Positions 37,091-48,595 of a stretch of 64,000 nucleotides of DNA are shown here, piece after piece; the stretch's first letter is position 1; each line of letters opens with the position of its first letter. The stretch comes from Sediminitomix flava. GTDB taxonomy: Bacteria; Bacteroidota; Bacteroidia; Cytophagales; Flammeovirgaceae. Location: contig NZ_QGDO01000002.1 of the NCBI RefSeq assembly GCF_003149185.1, positions 620,001-684,000 on the forward strand. The letters run 5' to 3'. A program made the position numbers and the translations under genes. The notes under the pieces are model-generated. The model saw only the letters and a program-made list of their open reading frames with translations. It did no database searches and had not been told where the DNA came from.

Positions 37091-38827
37091 TTACAACTTC
37101 TGAATCACCCACAAAATACTTAAACCCACCATCAAAATAGCGACAAACCACCATTGAGAAACCTCCTCTTGAATCTCCTTAATTTTCGGACTTTGCTTCT
37201 CTAGCTGACTTAGATCCAACAACTGTTGATAAAGGGCATACTTCTGATAAGTTTTCCAATTCTCAGAAGAAGAAACATAGATATTTTGTATACCATGACC
37301 ATCATCCACAGCATGCCAACCTTGTTCCTCGAAGACAGGACTGTTGTTAGTATGCTTTGCCAAATCTTCTCTTACATTCAAGTAGTAAGTCTCCTCTTTA
37401 GAAGAAGGCGAAACAATCTTAAAAGACTTCAGACCATCTGCGTTTACTTCTGTCTTCTGATTGTTAAAGACTAGATTTGGAAATTGAAAAGACTTCACCT
37501 TATTCTTTCTTGCGGTCAGCTGAATCAATTCTGACCAATACGTTTCATATTGCTCCTTCTGACTATACAGTTTCCAAACATACGTATTCAACACACGATT
37601 GATTGCTACTTTTCCTTTCTGACGAAAGACAACTTCACTTCCTATTAGATCATCACTTGTTGATACTTCAAACTTCATCTCACTTGTTTTCAACGTCCAA
37701 GGACTAATTGCTAGATCGTAATCCGTTTCATATTCTTTTGAATCTTTTTGAAGTTTAATATTCTTTAAAATAGGACTCACGGAAGCCTTCTCACTACTTC
37801 CTCTTACGATCAATCCGATACCATTCTTCACTAATTTATCCCATTTCTTTTGAGAACTAGATGTAAGCTTTTCAAAATATTCTTGAGTGGTAATAATCAG
37901 GTCGAACTGTTCTAAGTACTTTTGATTTTTAGCCGAAAAACTCCCATTAATTCCTTTCGTCTTTTCTTGGTTATAAATCTCTTTTGAGACCGCGGTATGA
38001 TATGCCCAATCATGTTCTTTTTCTGTCAGCCAATTTTTCAAAAACTTAAATTCAAAATCGGGTGAATTATTGACCAACAAAATCTTTAACGCTTGAGGAG
38101 CGAAAACCTCAATCCCAAAATCTAAAATATTTGCTGTTCCTTCTAAATCTAGCTCATACTTCCATAGCCCAGCTTGTTTAGGATAGATTTCAAATTTAAA
38201 CGTAGACACTTTCCCTTCTTTCAATGCGATTTGTGTAGAATCTAGTATTCCTTCAGCACCTTTAAGGTAAAGCATCTTTTTATCTTCACGATCACCAATT
38301 ATATTTCCCGAAATCGTAGCCTTTTCACCTAGTTCGATCTGATTATCTTGTTCAAAATCAATAATTCCAGAAATCGCATAAGGAAGAGATAATTCAAAAG
38401 GAATTTTAGAAAGGACTTCAACATCTGCATCATTTAGTTCTAACGTTGCGATTCTCAAACTTGACACATTTGGATTTTCAGCGAACAGATAATCTAAACC
38501 TTCTATTGACTTCTCTTCTGCTCTGAGTGTGACTACAGAAGTTTCATCATATCGTTTTTGGAAAACTGCAACACTATCTTTCGGAGTATCTTGTCCTATC
38601 ACCAAAAAAGAATCTGCTGATACTTCCTTTAAAATTGAAGGCTTCAAGCCTAAACCTAACAATCCCGTTCCGATTAACAGATACGCTAAAATACTCGTTG
38701 CAACAAAAGGTTTTCGTTGACGAATATGAAAAATAATCCCCAATGCTAGCAGTAAAAACACGCCTAAAATAAGTGGCAGATGATTCACCCAATGTATATC
38801 AATATGTAGTTTGTTCACGATCTTCAA
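37091..38827 (-). CDS. Large membrane protein of the MoxR cluster (amidotransferase-like/VWA-like periplasmic domain)
   Basis: 578 residues. Two N-terminal helices (about 16-32 and 41-62) and one C-terminal helix (about 558-576) flank a large extracytoplasmic domain. The middle has ALKILLVNNSPDFEFKFLKN and LIITTQEYFEKL, which look like a class I glutamine-amidotransferase-like fold, as seen in membrane proteins that accompany BatA/MoxR genes. No catalytic residues are evident. It follows the His-rich gene by 29 bases in the cluster. Function unknown. Confidence 0.65.
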   Translation of the reverse strand: MKIVNKLHIDIHWVNHLPLILGVFLLLALGIIFHIRQRKPFVATSILAYLLIGTGLLGLGLKPSILKEVSADSFLVIGQDTPKDSVAVFQKRYDETSVVTLRAEEKSIEGLDYLFAENPNVSSLRIATLELNDADVEVLSKIPFELSLPYAISGIIDFEQDNQIELGEKATISGNIIGDREDKKMLYLKGAEGILDSTQIALKEGKVSTFKFEIYPKQAGLWKYELDLEGTANILDFGIEVFAPQALKILLVNNSPDFEFKFLKNWLTEKEHDWAYHTAVSKEIYNQEKTKGINGSFSAKNQKYLEQFDLIITTQEYFEKLTSSSQKKWDKLVKNGIGLIVRGSSEKASVSPILKNIKLQKDSKEYETDYDLAISPWTLKTSEMKFEVSTSDDLIGSEVVFRQKGKVAINRVLNTYVWKLYSQKEQYETYWSELIQLTARKNKVKSFQFPNLVFNNQKTEVNADGLKSFKIVSPSSKEETYYLNVREDLAKHTNNSPVFEEQGWHAVDDGHGIQNIYVSSSENWKTYQKYALYQQLLDLSQLEKQSPKIKEIQEEVSQWWFVAILMVGLSILWVIQKL

Positions 38828-38856: not shown

Positions 38857-41196
38857 CTAAAGCTGTTTGTAATAAGCTTCCAAAAGTTTAGATTCCTTCC
38901 CTCTTAGCTTTGTTGGAGCTTTTGTAGCTGATTCCATCGTTTGTATAATAGTCTCTAAGACTTTTTCAGTGTCCAACTTCTGATGCTTTGAAAGTCCGTT
39001 TTCCTCAATCAGACTTAGGAGCGGATCAAGGCTTGTCAATTTTGAAGGACTTTCTGTCAATAGCTTTTCAGATAATTCATTCCCGACTTGTCTTAATAGA
39101 ATGATTTCATCAGCTGAAAAACCGACATTCTTCCAATGCTCACTTTGCAAAAGCAAAACCCCGTCTGCTAAAACAGACTTCGCTTGCTTGGAGACAGCTT
39201 TCTGAGTGCTAGACCTTGATTTCAATTCATATAATTCGCCACTTAATCGCTTTTCTGCAACCTTAAGTGGAGGCGGAGAAAAACCAACTCGTTCCACATA
39301 AATACGGGAGCGTTTCTGAATTTCCTTGATGTATTCGAGTGCTTTTTCTTCAAATGGAATGGCTTTCTTTGGAGTCGCTAATCGAAGTTGAAGCTCAGCA
39401 TCCCACATCTGAGCGAGCGCGGCTTTCAACAAAGACTTCAGTGCATTGTCAAAGAATGTAGAGACATCTGAATGATCATGATTATGAAAATAAGGTTCTA
39501 TTTCTGCCCCAACTTCCCCGAATTCCTTCTCATCTGCACCTATTTCTTCTTCATGACCAGGATGACCAGGATGATCATGACCAGCATGTGCAGCATGTTC
39601 CTCAGGTGTTTCATGCTCATGTCCCTTTTCTGTCACTTTTTCTTTATCATCAGTTGCATGAGCCGAATGATCATGGTATTTACGCCCAAAATGTGCGGCA
39701 TGCTCTTCAGGTGTTTCATGTTCGTGACCTTTTTCTGTTACCTTTCCCTCATGTTTATCATGACCATCTCCCTCATCCATAGGTCCGATTACCGTTACGG
39801 CTTCTTCCCCCAAAAACTTTCCATAACGCAGTCGTAAAATCTTCTGATCTGCCGCAATACTATTGCTACGCTCTTTAAATTCTTGATCAGATAATGAGGC
39901 TTTTTCAGCAATTAGCTTCTTTGTATCAATAATAATCTGACGTTGAGATCTGAAATATTCGGGCATCACATCTACTGCCAATCCACCTTGAAAAGTCAGC
40001 TGTTCTTTGTTCGGGTCTTTGATAGAAATGATATAGACATCCGTTTTTGCCCACTGTCCTTTGGGCTTATTGTCTTTTGCCCAAAATTGCAGATACAATT
40101 CATCCCCTGTTTCAGCCTTTAGAGCATCAAAATTCAAGATGGAAGATAGCTTTTGATCCTTATCCCCTTTTCGGAATCCCTCCAAAGGTAAAGGCACTTC
40201 TCTAAACTTAACAGACTCCCCTTCTCCTCTCGAAAGTGTAAGCATTAATTTTGCTTCTACAATACCGAAGTCATCTGAGGCTTTTGCTTGTAGTTCTAGT
40301 TCAAAGTTTGATTGATAATCGACTTGTGTAAAGGCTTCTAAACCCAGCAAAGTGACTTTAGGCTTTTCATCCGCTTTCACTTGAATCAAAAAGTTACGAG
40401 AAGTCTGAACTATGGAATCATTTTCATATTTCAACTGATAAACTGAAGGAGCATACATTCTCTTTTCTCCTTGAAAAAAATCACCATTCTGCCTAAAAGG
40501 CAATTGTTCTTTCTGGTCAAAAACAAGCTGAACCTTCTGAGGTAAACTTGAAAACTTCGCATTCCAAGTCACTTGACTTCCTTCCAAGATATTCAGATTC
40601 CCATTTGTGTCTTTCGTTGTAGAAAGCTTTGTATAACTAGGCGGAAGAACATTGATTTCTATCCCTTCTAACTGTGGAAAATCTTTAGCTGTCACACTCG
40701 AATTAATCCATGTCTCTTTTTCAAAAGATGGCACTTCAGCTAAAGGCTTTAGGGTAAAAGAAGCCCCCATAACCATTACAAAAAGTCCTAAACTCAGCAT
40801 TGAAATTCTGAATCGGAACGGCAGACGAATGAAAGCCTTATTCTCCATAAAATAAGCTTCAACTTTGTCTTTTTGCAGTCTTTCCAATACCGAATCAGTA
40901 TCAGAAATAAGTAGCTCGGCACTATGTTCAAATGAAGGATATTGCTGATTTAAATAGCGGAAAATTTCTGCATAGCCCTTTCCAAAAAAGTCTTTCTGAA
41001 TGAATCTTCCAATCAATAAAGCCAAAGCACTTATTCCTCCTGCCAGTTGAATCCATAATTGATCAACCCAAAACAATTCATTCAATGTTTGAACGAAAAA
41101 ATACAGCGTTATACTCAATAGGACTGAACGGAATGCTATTCCTAATCGCCAATTTCGCTTTAGCTTATGTAAATGTTGTAATACTATTTCCTCCAT
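38857..41196 (-). CDS. DUF4175-like membrane protein with His-rich repeat insert
   Basis: 779 residues. Two N-terminal helices (about 22-38 and 44-62) and a third near 128-148 precede a large extracytoplasmic beta-rich domain. From residue 473 to about 550 the chain is a His-rich, charged insert in which the 18-residue unit KVTEKGHEHETPEEHAAH occurs twice unchanged (485-502 and 520-537), with HNHDH near 571. The C-terminal part is helical. The general layout resembles DUF4175-type proteins of MoxR/BatA clusters. The His cluster could bind Zn, Ni or Cu. It lies 4 bases after the BatA gene. Confidence 0.65.
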   Translation of the reverse strand: MEEIVLQHLHKLKRNWRLGIAFRSVLLSITLYFFVQTLNELFWVDQLWIQLAGGISALALLIGRFIQKDFFGKGYAEIFRYLNQQYPSFEHSAELLISDTDSVLERLQKDKVEAYFMENKAFIRLPFRFRISMLSLGLFVMVMGASFTLKPLAEVPSFEKETWINSSVTAKDFPQLEGIEINVLPPSYTKLSTTKDTNGNLNILEGSQVTWNAKFSSLPQKVQLVFDQKEQLPFRQNGDFFQGEKRMYAPSVYQLKYENDSIVQTSRNFLIQVKADEKPKVTLLGLEAFTQVDYQSNFELELQAKASDDFGIVEAKLMLTLSRGEGESVKFREVPLPLEGFRKGDKDQKLSSILNFDALKAETGDELYLQFWAKDNKPKGQWAKTDVYIISIKDPNKEQLTFQGGLAVDVMPEYFRSQRQIIIDTKKLIAEKASLSDQEFKERSNSIAADQKILRLRYGKFLGEEAVTVIGPMDEGDGHDKHEGKVTEKGHEHETPEEHAAHFGRKYHDHSAHATDDKEKVTEKGHEHETPEEHAAHAGHDHPGHPGHEEEIGADEKEFGEVGAEIEPYFHNHDHSDVSTFFDNALKSLLKAALAQMWDAELQLRLATPKKAIPFEEKALEYIKEIQKRSRIYVERVGFSPPPLKVAEKRLSGELYELKSRSSTQKAVSKQAKSVLADGVLLLQSEHWKNVGFSADEIILLRQVGNELSEKLLTESPSKLTSLDPLLSLIEENGLSKHQKLDTEKVLETIIQTMESATKAPTKLRGKESKLLEAYYKQL
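39586..39744 (-). repeat. Tandem coding repeat for the His-rich segment
   Basis: Two 54-base units (39744-39691 and 39639-39586, minus strand), 105 bases apart, encode identical 18-residue peptides. Nine of the 18 codons differ, all by synonymous changes. The intervening linker (503-519) also has several His. Confidence 0.9.
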
Positions 41197-41200
41197 CGTT

Positions 41201-42478
41201 CTAGCCTTTTCGAATTGCCAAATAACGTTCTACACCAATTAGGATAAATACAAGCCACCATAACCAAATCTGCATATTCTTATTCACCGATCGCTGCTTT
41301 TCAATTGGAATCAACTGCTCAATCTTTTCTTTTTCCTTCTCAGATAAATGCCTTACATCTGCTTTTGAAATGGCTTCTTCATTTAGGTAATCAGCCATCA
41401 AGAGTTTTAGTAAAATACTCGGAAGCTGTTCCTCAAAATCGATAACGGCTTTTGCTTCTCGTGCATCATAAGACAATGTCCATTCACCTCCTTCTCCTTC
41501 GAATTGTATATGTTTCAATCCGCTTTTATGATGCAAAATGGAAAAGGAGTTTTGATGAGAGTTAGTTGCTTTTCGCCCTAAATAGATATGCCAATCGGCT
41601 ACGCTATCTGTCTGTTGAATCGTTATTAGTTTTTGTGCTTCAATCGCCTTGAGCGCCGCTTCAACTCGCCTTTTTTCAAAAGAATAAGATTTTGCAGCAT
41701 GGACTTTAAGCTTAAGTTTAGGCTTCTGCTCTAAAGCGACTTTATCATCTTTGAACATCAATTGCCAATTTCCTTGAGCATCCAATACTGCCTTTAAGGT
41801 GTCACCTCCTACAGACCATAGATAAGGTTTTTCAAAAGTGAAACCCTCTGAACTAAGATTTTGTACATTTTCATCACCTTCCGACCACCAAACTCTGACT
41901 TGTTCTTTTTCTTGAAATACACCAACTAATGATCTCACAGACTCCTTTTCGCCTATCCAATGCCATTGGGTATGAAAGCTAAGCTTAGGTGTATTCCCTT
42001 CAAAAAATTGCTTACGAGCCCTCACATAAACCGCTACAGTATCAAGCTGTGGATACTCGCGGTCTAGCATTTTTAATGCTTGCCAAATCGTATGCGTCTT
42101 TACTTCCGCTTCCGAGCGTTGGAATATTTCGTCCTTTTGCCAAAGAATGATAGTCTGATTTTCATCAAATTCTTTAGCTAAATCAGCTGAAACTTGAGCT
42201 TCCAAAAGGTTTATTCGATTGCTCGTTTGTTGCCACTGAAAAGGTGGGAATTTGGGTATGGCTATCAGAAAAATAAGACTCATGACAATCGCAGAACGAA
42301 GTAAAAAAAGTCTTCTTTCATTGAATTTGAGTCGACTAATCTTCGCAAACTTATCCTCCATCAGAAGTCGTACACTCCCAAATGGGATCTCCTTCCCTTG
42401 TTTACGGTACCATAAATGGATCAACAAAGGAATAAGAATGAGACTAAGTCCCCAGAGATATGTGTTATGTTGGAACAA
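41201..42478 (-). CDS. BatA-type membrane protein of the MoxR cluster
   Basis: 425 residues with a BatA N-terminal domain: LWGLSLILIPLLIHLWYRK, a linker with KISRLKFNERRLFLLRSAI, and a second helix near 63-85. A large extracytoplasmic domain follows, then a C-terminal helix near 405-420. In Bacteroidota such proteins are encoded beside MoxR ATPases and DUF58 proteins in stress or aerotolerance (Bat) systems. It precedes the His-rich gene by 4 bases. The gap upstream to the DUF58 gene holds a repeat element. Confidence 0.8.
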   Translation of the reverse strand: MFQHNTYLWGLSLILIPLLIHLWYRKQGKEIPFGSVRLLMEDKFAKISRLKFNERRLFLLRSAIVMSLIFLIAIPKFPPFQWQQTSNRINLLEAQVSADLAKEFDENQTIILWQKDEIFQRSEAEVKTHTIWQALKMLDREYPQLDTVAVYVRARKQFFEGNTPKLSFHTQWHWIGEKESVRSLVGVFQEKEQVRVWWSEGDENVQNLSSEGFTFEKPYLWSVGGDTLKAVLDAQGNWQLMFKDDKVALEQKPKLKLKVHAAKSYSFEKRRVEAALKAIEAQKLITIQQTDSVADWHIYLGRKATNSHQNSFSILHHKSGLKHIQFEGEGGEWTLSYDAREAKAVIDFEEQLPSILLKLLMADYLNEEAISKADVRHLSEKEKEKIEQLIPIEKQRSVNKNMQIWLWWLVFILIGVERYLAIRKG

Positions 42479-42807: not shown

Positions 42808-43680
42808 TTACATTAATAACTTTCGAAGAACACTCCCTTCATCTGCATCTAGTAATACTTCCATATATGAAATACCCGATTGCAGAAATTGTTCTTGTAA
42901 CTGAGCTTGCCAAGTACGAAAGGCTTTTTGGTATTGCGTTTTATTTTCTTTTCCCCCAATTAATATTTTTTTCCCAGACTCTAGATCAACCAAGGTATTT
43001 CCCGTTTTGAAGTCGAGCGTTTTCTCTTTCTCCCCTAACAAATGCAAGCAAATCACTTGATGTCCCATACTTCTCCAATAGCGAAGAAGTTCATACATAT
43101 TTTCGTCTTCTTGGTAGAAATCCGTAAAAAATAGAATCAGACTTCTTTTCTGTAAAAACTCAAAGGCATGAAGACTTTCCTTGTAGCTTAACCACGATTG
43201 AATTGGGGCTAGCTTGGTCAGAAAATCATAGAGAAAAGGAATATCTCCTCGTTTTTCTACAGTTTGAGATATCACTTGTGAAGTTGGAGAAAAAGCAGAA
43301 AGTTTAAATCCATCACCTTGTTTTGCTACAATATTCCCTGCCAATGCGGCCAGTAATCGTGCTTTATCAAACTTAGAAATTCCTTCTTCTGCATAAAGCA
43401 TTGAACGGCTATTATCCAAAATGACTTGTACAGGAATCCGCGCTTCCAACTCCGACTCTTTGATGAGGTAATTCCCTGTTCGAGCAAGTACTTTCCAATC
43501 CAGATTTCGGGGGTCATCTCCTGCCATATACGTTCTGTATTGGCTAAATTCCATTCCCGTTCCCTTCTGATTATTCCACTGCAAGCCAAACTGCATTCCA
43601 TCTAACAATTGATTGACTAAGAGTTCCAATTGTTCTACCGAAGCCAAATGACGGGCGAGTATTTTTTCGGAAAGCTTCAT
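42808..43680 (-). CDS. DUF58 domain-containing protein
   Basis: 290 residues, cytoplasmic. The N-terminal half contains the DUF58 signature YRTYMAGDDPRNLDWKVLAR near 48-67 and the VWA MIDAS-like start LDNSRSM near 88-94. The partner of MoxR ATPases, it may act as an adaptor for folding or assembly of envelope or metalloproteins. Its ATG overlaps the moxR stop by one base (TAATG at 43678-43682 on the minus strand), so translation is coupled. A repeat element follows its stop. Confidence 0.92.
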   Translation of the reverse strand: MKLSEKILARHLASVEQLELLVNQLLDGMQFGLQWNNQKGTGMEFSQYRTYMAGDDPRNLDWKVLARTGNYLIKESELEARIPVQVILDNSRSMLYAEEGISKFDKARLLAALAGNIVAKQGDGFKLSAFSPTSQVISQTVEKRGDIPFLYDFLTKLAPIQSWLSYKESLHAFEFLQKRSLILFFTDFYQEDENMYELLRYWRSMGHQVICLHLLGEKEKTLDFKTGNTLVDLESGKKILIGGKENKTQYQKAFRTWQAQLQEQFLQSGISYMEVLLDADEGSVLRKLLM

Positions 43681-44672
43681 TAGAGCACTGCAGCTTTAAG
43701 TTCAATTTTGGAGAAAAGGACATCAATCACTTGATCTGCGGTTGTACCATCAGCTATAGCTTGGAAATTGAGGAGTATTCTATGTCGCAATACGGGTTTG
43801 GCTACAGCCTCCAAATCTTCTGGAATAACAGCAAATCTTCCATTCATCAAGGCTCTAGCTTTTGCGGTAAGAATCAATGCTTGCCCTGCTCTTGGTCCAG
43901 CACCCCATCGCAAAGATTGTTTTGCCTCTTCTACACTAGAATCTTGTGGACGAGTAGAGCGGATCAATTGATTTACGAATCTTACTAAATCTTCATTTAT
44001 ACTGACTTCTCGAACCAAGTATTGCAGCTCTTTGATTTCCTCTTTTGAAAGTACAGCATTGACTTCTGCTTTTTTATTGGTCGTTGTCGAAAGTAATACT
44101 TGCAATTCGTCTGCTTCAGAAAGGTAACCCACCTTTACATACAGTAAAAAACGGTCGAGTTGTGCTTCTGGCAATTGGAATGTTCCCGCTTGTTCAATCG
44201 GGTTTTGCGTAGCGACAATGAAGAATGGCTCATCTAGTTTGTAGTCTTTTCCTGCATAAGTCACCTTTTTCTCTTGCATTGCTTCCAAAAGTGCTGCTTG
44301 TGTTTTGGGTGGAGTACGGTTTATCTCATCGGCAAGCAAAACGTTCGTAAAGATTGGACCTTGTACAAATTCAAAATGGCTTTGTTTACCACCTTCACCT
44401 TGTCTGAGTATTTCAGTTCCAAGAATATCCGTAGGCATCAAATCTGGTGTAAACTGAATTCTATTGAAGCCTAAGTCAACACCTTTGGCTAGGGTATTTA
44501 CCATAAGCGTTTTTGCTACTCCCGGAACACCTTCCAGAAGTGCATGCCCATTTGCTAATAAAGCAATCAGCATTTGCTCAACAGCTTCTTCCTGACCGAT
44601 GATAACCTTAGCCACTTCAGCTTTGAGCTCTTGTAATTTTGATGTTAGTTGTTGTATATGTTTTGTATCCAT
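43680..44672 (-). CDS. MoxR family AAA+ ATPase
   Basis: 330 residues. Walker A GVPGVAKT is at 48-55 and Walker B VLLADEINR at about 111-119, followed by PPKTQAALLEAMQEKKVTYA with sensor residues and FIVATQNPIEQAGTFQLPEAQLDRF, all typical of the MoxR/RavA branch. It should remodel the DUF58/BatA partners or their clients. It is separated from DUF4159 upstream by the second repeat element and overlaps the DUF58 gene by one base. Confidence 0.95.
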   Translation of the reverse strand: MDTKHIQQLTSKLQELKAEVAKVIIGQEEAVEQMLIALLANGHALLEGVPGVAKTLMVNTLAKGVDLGFNRIQFTPDLMPTDILGTEILRQGEGGKQSHFEFVQGPIFTNVLLADEINRTPPKTQAALLEAMQEKKVTYAGKDYKLDEPFFIVATQNPIEQAGTFQLPEAQLDRFLLYVKVGYLSEADELQVLLSTTTNKKAEVNAVLSKEEIKELQYLVREVSINEDLVRFVNQLIRSTRPQDSSVEEAKQSLRWGAGPRAGQALILTAKARALMNGRFAVIPEDLEAVAKPVLRHRILLNFQAIADGTTADQVIDVLFSKIELKAAVL

Positions 44673-44914: not shown

Positions 44915-45532
44915 TTAACTATTAAGCGCATACATAATGATATTCACACCAAATCGAGTATTATCTACTGCTAGCCACCTCTTATTTCTGAAATCATAAT
45001 CCCATTCGCAGCCATAATCTTTATTGCTGTAAAGCACGCCAATTCGCCCATTAATGATAATCGCTTTTAGGTATTCGTGGACTAAATCATCTCCCCATCC
45101 ATTTAATTCTTGAGAAGTAGTTGGAGGACCATCTTCAAATTCAAAAAAGGATGTATAAATAGGATGTGTATTCGGGATTTTTACGAGTGCATCAGCACCA
45201 AAAATATCCGCCATCTGATTTTCAAAAGATTTAGCAAATAAGCCATCTATATCATGATTGCAATCGTCTGCGAATACAAAGCCTCCATTTTCTACATATT
45301 GCTTGAAGTTCTGTTTCTCTTGTGCATCAAACTGCACCAGTTTATGTCCGCTGATATAGCAAAAAGGAGAACTAAAGATTTTGGGACTTGATAAAGGGAC
45401 TACACGTTCTTGTTCCTCAATTGGAATATTGGTGTATTCTACCAAAGAGTTTAAAAGATTGGAAGGCATACGCTGGTCTGTGTTCCAATCTCCAGAATTG
45501 TATTGTAATCGTGTAAAAAAGAATTTGCTCAA
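44915..45532 (-). CDS. DUF4159 domain-containing protein
   Basis: 206 residues if translation starts at the TTG at 45532, giving MSKFFFTRLQYNSGDW, which fits the family N-terminus. A GTG at 45556 is possible but lies inside a terminator hairpin. Segments GDWNTDQRMPSNLLNSLVEYT, GGFVFADDCNHDIDGLFAKS and NSKDYGCEWDYDFRNKRW-like are characteristic of DUF4159, a flavodoxin/amidotransferase-like fold. No signal peptide. It belongs to the MoxR cluster. The lack of an ATG start and the hairpin upstream suggest weak or attenuated expression. Confidence 0.8.
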   Translation of the reverse strand: MSKFFFTRLQYNSGDWNTDQRMPSNLLNSLVEYTNIPIEEQERVVPLSSPKIFSSPFCYISGHKLVQFDAQEKQNFKQYVENGGFVFADDCNHDIDGLFAKSFENQMADIFGADALVKIPNTHPIYTSFFEFEDGPPTTSQELNGWGDDLVHEYLKAIIINGRIGVLYSNKDYGCEWDYDFRNKRWLAVDNTRFGVNIIMYALNS

Positions 45533-45548
45533 TGGTTTAGCTATTTTG

Positions 45549-45596
45549 AAACCCACTCTTAATCCCCTTTCGAAAAAGAGATTAACGAGTGGGTTT
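45549..45596 (-). terminator. Terminator/attenuator between pmbA and DUF4159 genes
   Basis: Stem AAACCCACTC (45549-45558) and GAGTGGGTTT (45587-45596), extended inside by TTAATC/GATTAA with one bulge. It ends the pmbA message and overlaps the first codons of the longest DUF4159 frame. Confidence 0.75.
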
Positions 45597-45609
45597 TATC
45601 ATACACTAA

Positions 45610-46926
45610 TTAGATAGCATCTGAAAGACTTGTAAATGTAAAGTCTCTGATCTTCATTGGAGGAATCATTTTCCCATCAAAACGAACAGGTTTACCCAAG
45701 TCTTCAATGTTATTCAACATGATTACTGGACTTTCATTGAAACGCATATTCTTAATAGGGAATTTGATCTTTCCATTCTCAATGTAGAAAGTTCCGTCAC
45801 GAGTTAGCCCTGTATAAAGTAACGTCTGAGGGTCTACCGAACGGATATACCACAAGCGAGTGACTAAGATACCTTTCTCAGTACTTTCGATCAGTTCTTG
45901 TGTAGACTTATCGCCACCTACCATAATCATGTTTGAAGGTCTTGGCATAGCGACTTCTCCATTTTTATCAGCCCAATAACGGCTTCTGAATAAGTTTTTC
46001 ACTACTCCATTCTCAACCCACATTGTTTTTTCACGAGGAAGACCATCGCCACTGATTGCTGAAGCAGGAACTTCTGGATGCCAAGGGTCAGAGTAAATCG
46101 TTACTCTTTCGTCGAACATCTTCTCTCCGATTTTAGTACCTCCACCTCTTTTAGACATAAAACTACGTCCTTCATCGGCAGAACGAGCACTCATATTGAA
46201 GCCCATATTTCTGATCAAATCAGCTGAAGCTGCTGGTTCAAGAATTACAGTGTATTTCCCTGGCTCAATCGCTTTTGCATTACGAGAATCTGTTGCTTTT
46301 TGTACCGCAATTGATGTAGCTTTTTCAATGTCAAACTTAGATACATCATTGAAATCACGACGAACCCAACCCGAACCTGTACCGTCTTTCGAACGGACAG
46401 TTAGTGTAAAGTCCATACTTGTAGATTCTTCGTAAGCGAAAAGTCCTTTAGAATTTGCTGATGCTTCAAAAGAAGCTTCATCTTCTAAGAAACCTGCTGC
46501 TACTAAATCATTTTTCTCCGCCATTGTGATACTTGTTTCAGCTACTTTTGCTCGGAATTCTGGGTTGATTTCCGCTGTAGCCTTTGTATACATTGGCGTT
46601 GGTTTATATTCATGAGGTCCTTCTAGAGGCATGTACTCAGGATTCTCTGGAGCAAGTTTTGCCAACTCCTCGGAACGCTCTACAACTCTTTTCAAGGATT
46701 CTTTATCCAATTCATTTGTTGTAGCTACTCCTGATTTCTTTCCATAAGTAGATCTTACAGCAAGTTCTAAATCTGATTTCATACCTGCAGTAGAAACCGT
46801 ATTTCTAGCATAACGGATATTTCCACTGTTGCTACCACCTAGTGTCACTTCACACTCATCGGCAGTAGAGAAGCTCAATACCTTGTCTAAGATGATTTTT
46901 GCTTCCTCTTTGGTTAATAATGCCAT
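45610..46926 (-). CDS. pmbA: TldD/PmbA family protein, PmbA-like subunit
   Basis: 438 residues, cytoplasmic by lack of a signal peptide. It contains the TldD/PmbA core (e.g. SKRGGGTKIGEKMFDERVTI, TGLTRDGTFYIENGKIKFP) but no HExxxH, which fits the regulatory PmbA half of the TldD/PmbA metalloprotease. In E. coli the complex processes microcin B17. The active subunit tldD lies 31 bases upstream. Its last bases precede the terminator-like hairpin before DUF4159. Confidence 0.88.
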   Translation of the reverse strand: MALLTKEEAKIILDKVLSFSTADECEVTLGGSNSGNIRYARNTVSTAGMKSDLELAVRSTYGKKSGVATTNELDKESLKRVVERSEELAKLAPENPEYMPLEGPHEYKPTPMYTKATAEINPEFRAKVAETSITMAEKNDLVAAGFLEDEASFEASANSKGLFAYEESTSMDFTLTVRSKDGTGSGWVRRDFNDVSKFDIEKATSIAVQKATDSRNAKAIEPGKYTVILEPAASADLIRNMGFNMSARSADEGRSFMSKRGGGTKIGEKMFDERVTIYSDPWHPEVPASAISGDGLPREKTMWVENGVVKNLFRSRYWADKNGEVAMPRPSNMIMVGGDKSTQELIESTEKGILVTRLWYIRSVDPQTLLYTGLTRDGTFYIENGKIKFPIKNMRFNESPVIMLNNIEDLGKPVRFDGKMIPPMKIRDFTFTSLSDAI

Positions 46927-46957: not shown

Positions 46958-48595
46958 TTAGATTTTACGGCCAGTGTTAATCACATTGATACCGTTGAAA
47001 CGTGTAGTAGAACTACCGTGAGAAACCGCAGAAACTTGCGAAGGCTGTCCTTTTCCGTCAAAGAATGAGCCAAATAAACGGTAATCATCAGCGTCACAAA
47101 TCTTCGCACATGAGTTCCAGAACTCTTGCGTATTTGATTGGTAAGCTACATCCTTCAACATTCCTGTGATTTCACCATTCTTAATTTCCATAAACACTGT
47201 TCCTCCAAACTGGAAGTTGTAGCGTTGTTGGTCAATTGAGAATGATCCTCTACCTGCAATGTAGATTCCTTTTTCTACATCTTTGATCATGTCTTGAACA
47301 GAGTACTTTTCTTTACCTGGCTGTAAAGAAACGTTTGGCATACGTTGGAACTGAACTGTGTCCCAACCATCGGCATAACAACAGCCATGAGAAGCTTCTT
47401 CTCCTAGCATATGTGCTTGGTCACGGATAGCTTGGTAATTCACCAATGTTCCGTCTTTCACCAAGTGCCACTCTTTTGTTTTTACACCTTCGTCATCATA
47501 ACCGACTGCTCCCAAAGATCCTTTTTGAGTTTTATCAGCTACAAGATTTACGATGTCTGATCCGTATTTGAAGTTCTTTGATTCCCACTTATCAAGTGTC
47601 GCGAAACTTGTCCCCGCATAGTTGGCTTCATAGCCTAATACACGGTCAAGCTCTAGTGGGTGACCAACTGATTCGTGAATAGTCAGTCCTAAGTGATTTG
47701 GCTCTAGCACCAAATCGTACTTTCCTGGTTCTACTGATTTTGCAGATAGCATTTCTTTTACTTGCTTTCCTGCAATGGCAGCATCTTCCACCATATCATA
47801 CGAATTTCTGTAAAGACGAAGACCTGCTGGACCATCTACCTTTTCAGAATCTAGTCCATCCAAATACTCAAATCCCATTCCCATCGGTGCAGAAAGTGCT
47901 TGACGAGATTTGAATTTACCTGTATTTTGATCTACACCTGTTGCTGTGAATGTTGGCCAAACACGGTGTACATCTTGATCGATGTAAGAACCTTCTGTAG
48001 AAGCAAAGTACTTTTGCTCATTTACAAAAAATAAAGCAGAAGAAACAAACTTAGCCCCATTGTCCATGGCTGCAGAGTTTGCATTCAGTAATAAATCTAC
48101 TTTGTCTTTGATTGGAGTTTCGAAAGCATTCTTTTCGATTGGTGCTTTCCAAGCTACTTGTCCGTAGCCTTCTTGTGGAACAAGATTTACAGGTTCTTTT
48201 TGGATACGAGAGTTTGCTTTTGCTATTGCTACGGCTTGTCTTGTAGCCTCTCTGATACCTCTTTCAGTTACATCATTAGTAGAAGCAAATCCCCAAGTAC
48301 CATTGGCAATTACACGAACACCAATACCAAAAGATTCTGTGTTAACGATGTTCTGAACTTTCTTTTCGCGAGTAAATAGAAATTGGTTTAGGTAACGTCC
48401 TATACGTACATCGGCATAGGAAGCGCCATTACTAGTTGCAGTGTCAAGGGCAACATCTGATAAATGTTTTTTCACTGAATCTGCAACGGGGTCTTTGATC
48501 ACATCAGTTGGGACAGCATTACCAATAATCGGCACCGATAGCGCTGTTCCACCTAATCCAAGACCCGCTAATTGAATAAAGTTTCGTCTTTTCAA
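46958..48595 (-). CDS. tldD: TldD-type metalloprotease with Tat signal
   Basis: 545 residues. The N-terminus MKRRNFIQLAGLGLGG with a twin-Arg and following hydrophobic stretch is a Tat-type export signal. The zinc motif HESVGH is at 307-312 in LGLTIHESVGHPLELDR. TldD acts with PmbA as an endopeptidase on small or partly unfolded peptides. Export of TldD while its PmbA partner lacks a signal would keep them apart, unless the pair hitchhikes; see findings. First gene of the tldD-pmbA-DUF4159-moxR run. Confidence 0.9.
   Translation of the reverse strand: MKRRNFIQLAGLGLGGTALSVPIIGNAVPTDVIKDPVADSVKKHLSDVALDTATSNGASYADVRIGRYLNQFLFTREKKVQNIVNTESFGIGVRVIANGTWGFASTNDVTERGIREATRQAVAIAKANSRIQKEPVNLVPQEGYGQVAWKAPIEKNAFETPIKDKVDLLLNANSAAMDNGAKFVSSALFFVNEQKYFASTEGSYIDQDVHRVWPTFTATGVDQNTGKFKSRQALSAPMGMGFEYLDGLDSEKVDGPAGLRLYRNSYDMVEDAAIAGKQVKEMLSAKSVEPGKYDLVLEPNHLGLTIHESVGHPLELDRVLGYEANYAGTSFATLDKWESKNFKYGSDIVNLVADKTQKGSLGAVGYDDEGVKTKEWHLVKDGTLVNYQAIRDQAHMLGEEASHGCCYADGWDTVQFQRMPNVSLQPGKEKYSVQDMIKDVEKGIYIAGRGSFSIDQQRYNFQFGGTVFMEIKNGEITGMLKDVAYQSNTQEFWNSCAKICDADDYRLFGSFFDGKGQPSQVSAVSHGSSTTRFNGINVINTGRKI

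Follow-up and report, generated by a model that had tools for sequence, protein, structure and literature searches.

Why would a protein carry the same histidine-rich stretch of 18 residues twice, each time spelled with different codons? The question is raised by a DUF4175-like gene in the 64,000 nucleotides of Sediminitomix flava DNA analysed here (contig NZ_QGDO01000002.1; hereafter, the window), whose features are collected in Table 1. Both units read KVTEKGHEHETPEEHAAH, letter for letter, and differ at 9 of 18 codons by nine bases in total, every one of them synonymous. Of the protein's 25 histidines, 17 fall within residues 479-548. An earlier note on this DNA had reported the identical peptide, the purely synonymous codon differences and the 17 histidines, and its numbers are exact.

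Table 1. Features of the DUF4175-like gene and its neighbours (window coordinates)
Feature	Position	Strand	Basis or match
578-aa membrane protein, downstream	37091..38827	-	no Pfam or NCBIfam match
DUF4175-like gene, 779 aa	38857..41196	-	ORF
Post-loop motif H571-N-H573-D574	39475..39486	-	134-orthologue alignment
His/Asp/Glu-rich variable loop, residues 466-570, 17 His	39487..39801	-	predicted unstructured
18-residue unit 2, residues 520-537	39586..39639	-	
18-residue unit 1, residues 485-502	39691..39744	-	
Pre-loop conserved segment LRLRYGKFLGEE, residues 454-465	39802..39837	-	alignment
BatA-like protein, N-terminal double membrane anchor	41201..42478	-	PF07584, TIGR02226
DUF58 protein, DNSRS (MIDAS-like) motif	42808..43680	-	PF01882
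MoxR-type AAA+ ATPase	43680..44672	-	PF07726 (E 8e-62), lid PF17863 (E 2e-19)
DUF4159 protein	44915..45556	-	PF13709
Two PmbA/TldD metallopeptidase-family genes	45610-46926, 46958-48595	-	

Age of the duplication and selection on the peptide

The units start 105 bases apart, within a gapless repeat of 96 nt whose DNA identity is 74%. Given the codon usage of the 38 window ORFs (16,310 codons), two independent encodings of the peptide are expected to differ at 9.2 +/- 2.0 codons, and nine differences are seen; that is, synonymous positions between the units look saturated. Under a simple neutral model (kappa 1 to 8), the probability that nine out of nine changes are synonymous is 7e-7 to 1.8e-5. 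In an ungapped comparison, the 17 codons that follow each unit differ by about 21 nonsynonymous and 4 synonymous changes, against no nonsynonymous change in the block itself (Fisher p = 1.4e-5); the figure of 21 is an upper one, since a gapped alignment assigns part of the divergence after the block to insertion/deletion. These p-values (about 1e-6 to 2e-5) are also optimistic because the block was picked for its identity and the changes are taken as independent. As judged from the substitutions, selection is focused on the 18-mer, even allowing for the indels after the block.

Synonymous saturation, together with the divergence of the residues after the block, argues for a duplication that is old and has been maintained by selection for the peptide. 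The earlier note had claimed such selection and had spoken against a recent DNA duplication. Both claims are borne out by codons that look synonymously saturated without a single amino-acid change, and the codon differences between the units are incompatible with a recent duplication.

The opposite strand also carries an ORF here. This plus-strand antisense frame of 121 codons (39472-39837) covers the His-rich loop. Read in it, the two units disagree at 9 of 18 residues, which makes the ORF look like a side effect of composition. A second antisense frame gives the same reading in both units but meets a stop in unit 1. Antisense coding was therefore rejected as the cause of the conservation.

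Within the genome, histidine density per 70 residues was ranked over 337 ORFs of at least 100 aa, picked by a mechanical rule from twenty 20-kb stretches of the genome and from the window, and the repeat stretch comes second. The most His-dense ORF of the 337 encodes an FtsX/MacB-like ABC permease (L093:11813-13246, contig C4) with 27 histidines in 70 residues, adjoined by an ABC ATPase (L093:11164-11826). The five tandem His repeats of this permease show 0-2 amino-acid differences per pair over 12 residues, with 1-5 of 12 codons changed synonymously. It is a milder case of the same peptide in different codons, so the idea that this pattern is unique to the window gene was rejected. The 74-residue repeat region itself finds no second match in its own genome, and matches itself alone across 291 genomes of the order.

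Orthologues and the reach of the repeat

Searches for orthologues covered four partly overlapping sets (58 relatives, 395 genomes from the phylum, 390 from the order and 201 from a single family), and three contig loci were added. Named relatives with matches include Tenacibaculum, Hymenobacter and a Chitinophagales bin. Frames of 400 aa or less, near-duplicates and matches weaker than 1e-20 (phmmer) or 1e-60 (hmmsearch) were dropped, as were two loci in which the window gene appears again (L001 and L098) and the sampled stretches of its own genome. Fetching and filtering left 134 distinct orthologues, the window protein included. This number leaves unfetched matches uncounted (the order search alone gave a match in 186 of 390 genomes) and describes a non-random set, made of best-scoring and hand-picked genomes, with one family (f23) deliberately enriched for a group lacking loop histidines. 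The relative that ranks first by search score has 38% identity, and identity to the window protein is 26-33% for the other members of a 60-protein alignment. The gene is present in 2 of 18 genomes of its own family, the source genome being one of the 18.

The 18-mer is found in none of the 133 other orthologues, where the best match covers 9 of 18 residues. Matches at this level, NETEIGGDHDDHDEHAAH and similar segments, occur in four proteins of family f23 (L139, L141, L150 and L154). The 18-mer is the longest exact repeat among the 134 loops; an exactly repeated peptide of at least 6 residues occurs in just two other loops, both times 6 residues long. The duplicated piece is thus real and old, and it is seen in this genome alone. 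A family-wide 18-mer was rejected on its absence from all 133, and orthologues lacking the repeat are what the earlier note had itself named as counter-evidence.

A loop with paired histidines, by contrast, is present in most of the relatives examined. Its bounds, set from alignments of 86 and 134 orthologues, lie between two conserved segments. Upstream, R455, Y458, G463 and E465 are invariant in the 86 orthologues (also in the 60 aligned), and the family form of the segment is LRLRYGxFLGEE. Downstream, His 573 is present in 134 of 134 orthologues, Asp 574 in 126 and His 571 in 111. The loop varies from 28 to 143 residues over the 134. Its histidine content is 10.5%, compared with 1.3% elsewhere in the same 86 proteins, and is the higher of the two in 83 of them; Asp+Glu make up 24% and Lys+Arg 6%. 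Over all 134 proteins, with the group lacking loop histidines included, loop histidine is still 9.7%. The highest count belongs to an orthologue in a Chitinophagales bin (L025:2920-5388), with 37 histidines in a loop of 143 residues.

Spacing is as distinctive as composition. H-x-H occurs 263 times in the 134 loops, against 76 +/- 7 in shuffled loops, whereas HH is rarer than shuffling predicts (42 against 78 +/- 7). With one loop per genus (58 genera) the count is 168 against 48 +/- 6, and 51 of the 58 representatives have H-x-H within the loop. For histidines spaced three to five residues apart the excess is smaller (1.4- to 1.7-fold), and for acidic residues paired at the H-x-H spacing it is about 1.2-fold. 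The middle residue is Asp in 122 of the 263 cases, and the excess is partly one of His-Asp alternation; H-x-H whose middle residue is none of these three (Asp, Glu, His) still exceeds expectation (109 against 47). In 38 of 86 orthologues (for example L007, L028 and L034) the loop contains an additional [YF]-x-H-x-H-[DE], as if the post-loop motif had been duplicated; all shuffled loops together would give 0.7, in a count that ignores kinship.

Could such a loop respond to pH rather than to metal? A polyampholyte whose histidines are protonated near Asp and Glu would change shape without any metal, and a loop on the probable periplasmic side, with its histidines set amid 24% Asp+Glu and little Lys or Arg, has the right make-up. 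A pH sensor needs that composition and no fixed spacing, yet H-x-H is over-represented and HH under-represented in the loops, and all 134 proteins have H573. We consider pH sensing quite improbable, and less likely than metal binding.

Close relatives were compared in 38 pairs of 55-95% identity, drawn from 218 pairs above 55% with at most two pairs per protein and those above 97% dropped. Loop histidines are kept in 438 of 524 comparisons (84%); for the other loop residues the share averages 69% of 4951. Among these, Tyr (0.92) and Phe (0.86) match or exceed His (0.84) in retention, and Leu is about equal to it. Over 15 close pairs, pooled pN/pS is 0.125 in the loop and 0.154 outside it; 11 of the pairs have the lower value in the loop, where single pairs range from 0.04 to 0.32. 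These 15 pairs were hand-picked (the ten closest of the 38 and five of family f23, one of them lacking loop histidines), and gap columns were uncounted. The range of lengths, the histidine retention and the pN/pS of close pairs indicate that loop length is free and substitutions are constrained.

A loop of free length might be a neutral spacer, made by slippage from drifting low-complexity DNA, with the codon differences as noise. The 28-143 residue range and the strong sequence differences among orthologues are what such a spacer would give. A neutral spacer would not be expected to preserve an 18-mer without amino-acid change at synonymous saturation, nor to have a loop pN/pS as low as the rest of the protein in the 15 pairs, so that on the substitution evidence this very improbable reading is already contradicted. 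As far as the alignments tell, the family keeps three things: the composition of the loop, the H-x-H spacing within it and the adjoining H-x-H-D motif. From the same comparisons, the repeat is a local, old and selected duplication, and the loop around it the real conserved feature.

Orthologues without loop histidines

Twenty of the 134 orthologues have no histidine in the loop, and all 20 have Asp at position 571. Three more with Asp 571 hold one loop histidine each, while all 111 orthologues with His 571 have histidines in the loop. The 23 Asp-571 proteins belong to two genera (g59 and g292) of a single family, f23, and have short loops; L038, L043, L045, L153, L157, L158 and L161 are among them. 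A further measure of variation is that 9 of 134 orthologues have just one or two loop histidines. Together with the 20 that have none, these imply that loop histidines are dispensable in some relatives.

The pattern suggests that the loop and H571 act together. A quick tree (LG+G4), built without the loop and motif columns, counts two changes in the motif and five in the presence of loop histidines. In this tree 40 of 131 inner branches have low support and several long branches are flagged, the window's row among them. The branch that separates the two genera, and places one of them with a His-bearing row, has 88% support. The joint loss of loop histidines and H571 thus amounts to one or two events, which makes it weak evidence, and a test on independent pairs had one pair on supported branches and no power. 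The Asp-571 sister group is a natural variant, or control, for functional comparison.

Gene neighbourhood

Where present, the neighbouring genes keep one order: MoxR, DUF58, BatA and the DUF4175-like gene. Among 23 neighbourhoods, several of which are truncated at contig ends or by short flanks, 19 have MoxR, 21 have DUF58 and 22 have BatA, and a relative of the 578-aa protein adjoins the gene in 20. A DUF4159 relative occurs in 16 (on the opposite strand in two) and one or both of the TldD/PmbA genes in 13. Two exceptions stand out: in L118 BatA alone lies beside the gene, with about 6 kb read on each side, and in L025 MoxR, DUF58 and BatA are all absent from 3-kb flanks. In the window, the DxSxS motif of the DUF58 protein (DNSRS) is at residue 89 and the BatA-like protein has none; at E 0.001 neither protein returned a VWA family of Pfam.

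Conserved neighbours are also possible partners. The loop might serve as a surface that binds the cell wall or a partner protein, with the 18-residue unit as a short linear motif in two copies. This would fit the exactness of all 18 residues (non-His residues included), the rank of the repeat as the longest exact one among the 134 loops and the retention of Tyr and Phe on a par with His. Other orthologues lack the 18-mer though most of the 23 loci share these neighbours, and histidine is retained beyond the average loop residue. On balance, a partner surface seems unlikely.

Membrane topology and predicted structure

The protein has three hydrophobic segments near its N-terminus (about 18-36, 48-66 and 129-147), and simple hydropathy with Lys+Arg counts makes it probable that the residues after about 150 are periplasmic. 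The earlier note had described a His-rich loop in an envelope protein linked to a MoxR/DUF58/BatA system, and so it is found, with the periplasmic side as the probable one.

Two structure models, both of low confidence, have a mean pLDDT of 52 (first model, pTM 0.28) and 57 (fragment model, pTM 0.29). In both, helices flank an unstructured loop (437-458 and 584-605 in the first model). In that model, mean pLDDT over residues 461-580 is 24-31; the models were made from four sequences, and low pLDDT from such input is poor proof of disorder. Foldseek with the first model returned Ig/FnIII-like and VPS26 beta-sandwich folds at a query TM of at most 0.14 among the 50 matches listed, and these were left unused. 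A sequence search for solved relatives gave one match at chance level (E 0.91).

A proposed metal-binding loop

Arrangements of this kind, with H-x-H pairs among acidic residues and an H-x-H-D motif beside them, are known to bind Zn2+, Ni2+ or Cu2+. Our preferred reading, which we hold with moderate confidence, is that the disordered His/Asp-rich loop binds a divalent metal in the periplasm and that H571-x-H573-D574, just before the next helix, would be its fixed metal site. Zn2+ is the most likely ion, with Ni2+, Cu2+ or Co2+ possible. The best-supported step of this reading is selection for H-x-H pairs among acidic residues beside H-x-H-D. The two 18-residue units would then be an old tandem duplication of one binding segment, each copy intact since. 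A strict binding site, on the other hand, would not lead one to expect a loop that varies from 28 to 143 residues, nor an 18-mer confined to a single genome.

The loop may gather or buffer metal beside the MoxR-DUF58-BatA complex, and the complex could draw on this metal in maturing or regulating a protein of the envelope. The idea of a MoxR-driven use of metal comes from the gene order and from the precedent of NorQD, as described in the part of that paper available to us (PMC13036017). We infer all of these elements: membrane topology, disorder, metal binding and the gathering of metal for the MoxR complex.

The argument could be carried one step further. The MoxR-DUF58-BatA-DUF4175 locus of many Bacteroidota might be an envelope metal-delivery machine, in which the loop would collect periplasmic metal, H-x-H-D would pass it on and the MoxR ATPase would drive its insertion into a target. 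We regard this extension as doubtful. Were it true, the group without loop histidines and H571 would no longer handle that metal.

Comparison with known systems

DUF4175 is barely studied; in the partial literature we could draw on, the name appears in one paper, for AdvA of Acinetobacter baumannii. The window protein matches PF13779 at 40.6 bits, above the gathering cut-off of 27.3 (E 1.1e-10), but the match (residues 126-347 of 779, profile positions 142-350 of 825 only) ends before the loop, which lies outside it. PF13779 is matched by 18 of 60 orthologues at E 0.001. A longer DUF4175-like relative (L024, a frame of 1094 residues), the single one examined, is without H-x-H.

MoxR, DUF58 and BatA-like genes in one order define Bat (Bacteroides aerotolerance) loci, and the locus described here has these genes in that order. 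Unlike Bat loci, it joins them to the DUF4175-like gene and often to DUF4159 and TldD/PmbA genes. In Leptospira biflexa, according to the portion of the study at hand, deletion of bat genes gave no growth or oxidative-stress phenotype (PMC3557215). Term searches of the same partial literature found, among the papers that came nearest, none that joins histidine-rich with MoxR; no work that joins all of histidine-rich, tandem repeat, synonymous and metal-binding; and none that joins three of DUF58, MoxR, Bacteroidetes and TldD.

With a His-rich loop that recurs and an H-x-H-D site that stays fixed, metal is what should be tested first, and known systems offer a comparison. PA4063 has His-rich stretches that are disordered without zinc, a few of whose residues help to bind it (PMC8561739, as far as the text was accessible). 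The likeness to PA4063 and ZnuA, on what we could see of these sources, is a His-rich stretch, predicted to be unstructured, on the probable periplasmic side. The difference is that PA4063 and ZnuA are periplasmic and linked to zinc uptake, whereas the window protein has membrane segments and sits in a MoxR locus. PA4064/PA4065 are the ABC pair of the same zinc-linked operon (PMC8561739, in the same portion), and the His-rich permease and its ATPase elsewhere in the S. flava genome resemble them by general description alone. In NorQD, metal is inserted with the help of a MoxR ATPase and its VWA partner; the term 'histidine-rich' is not mentioned in the part of the paper available to us (PMC13036017). 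The likeness to NorQ/NorD lies in the locus itself, where the MoxR ATPase adjoins a DUF58 protein with a DxSxS motif.
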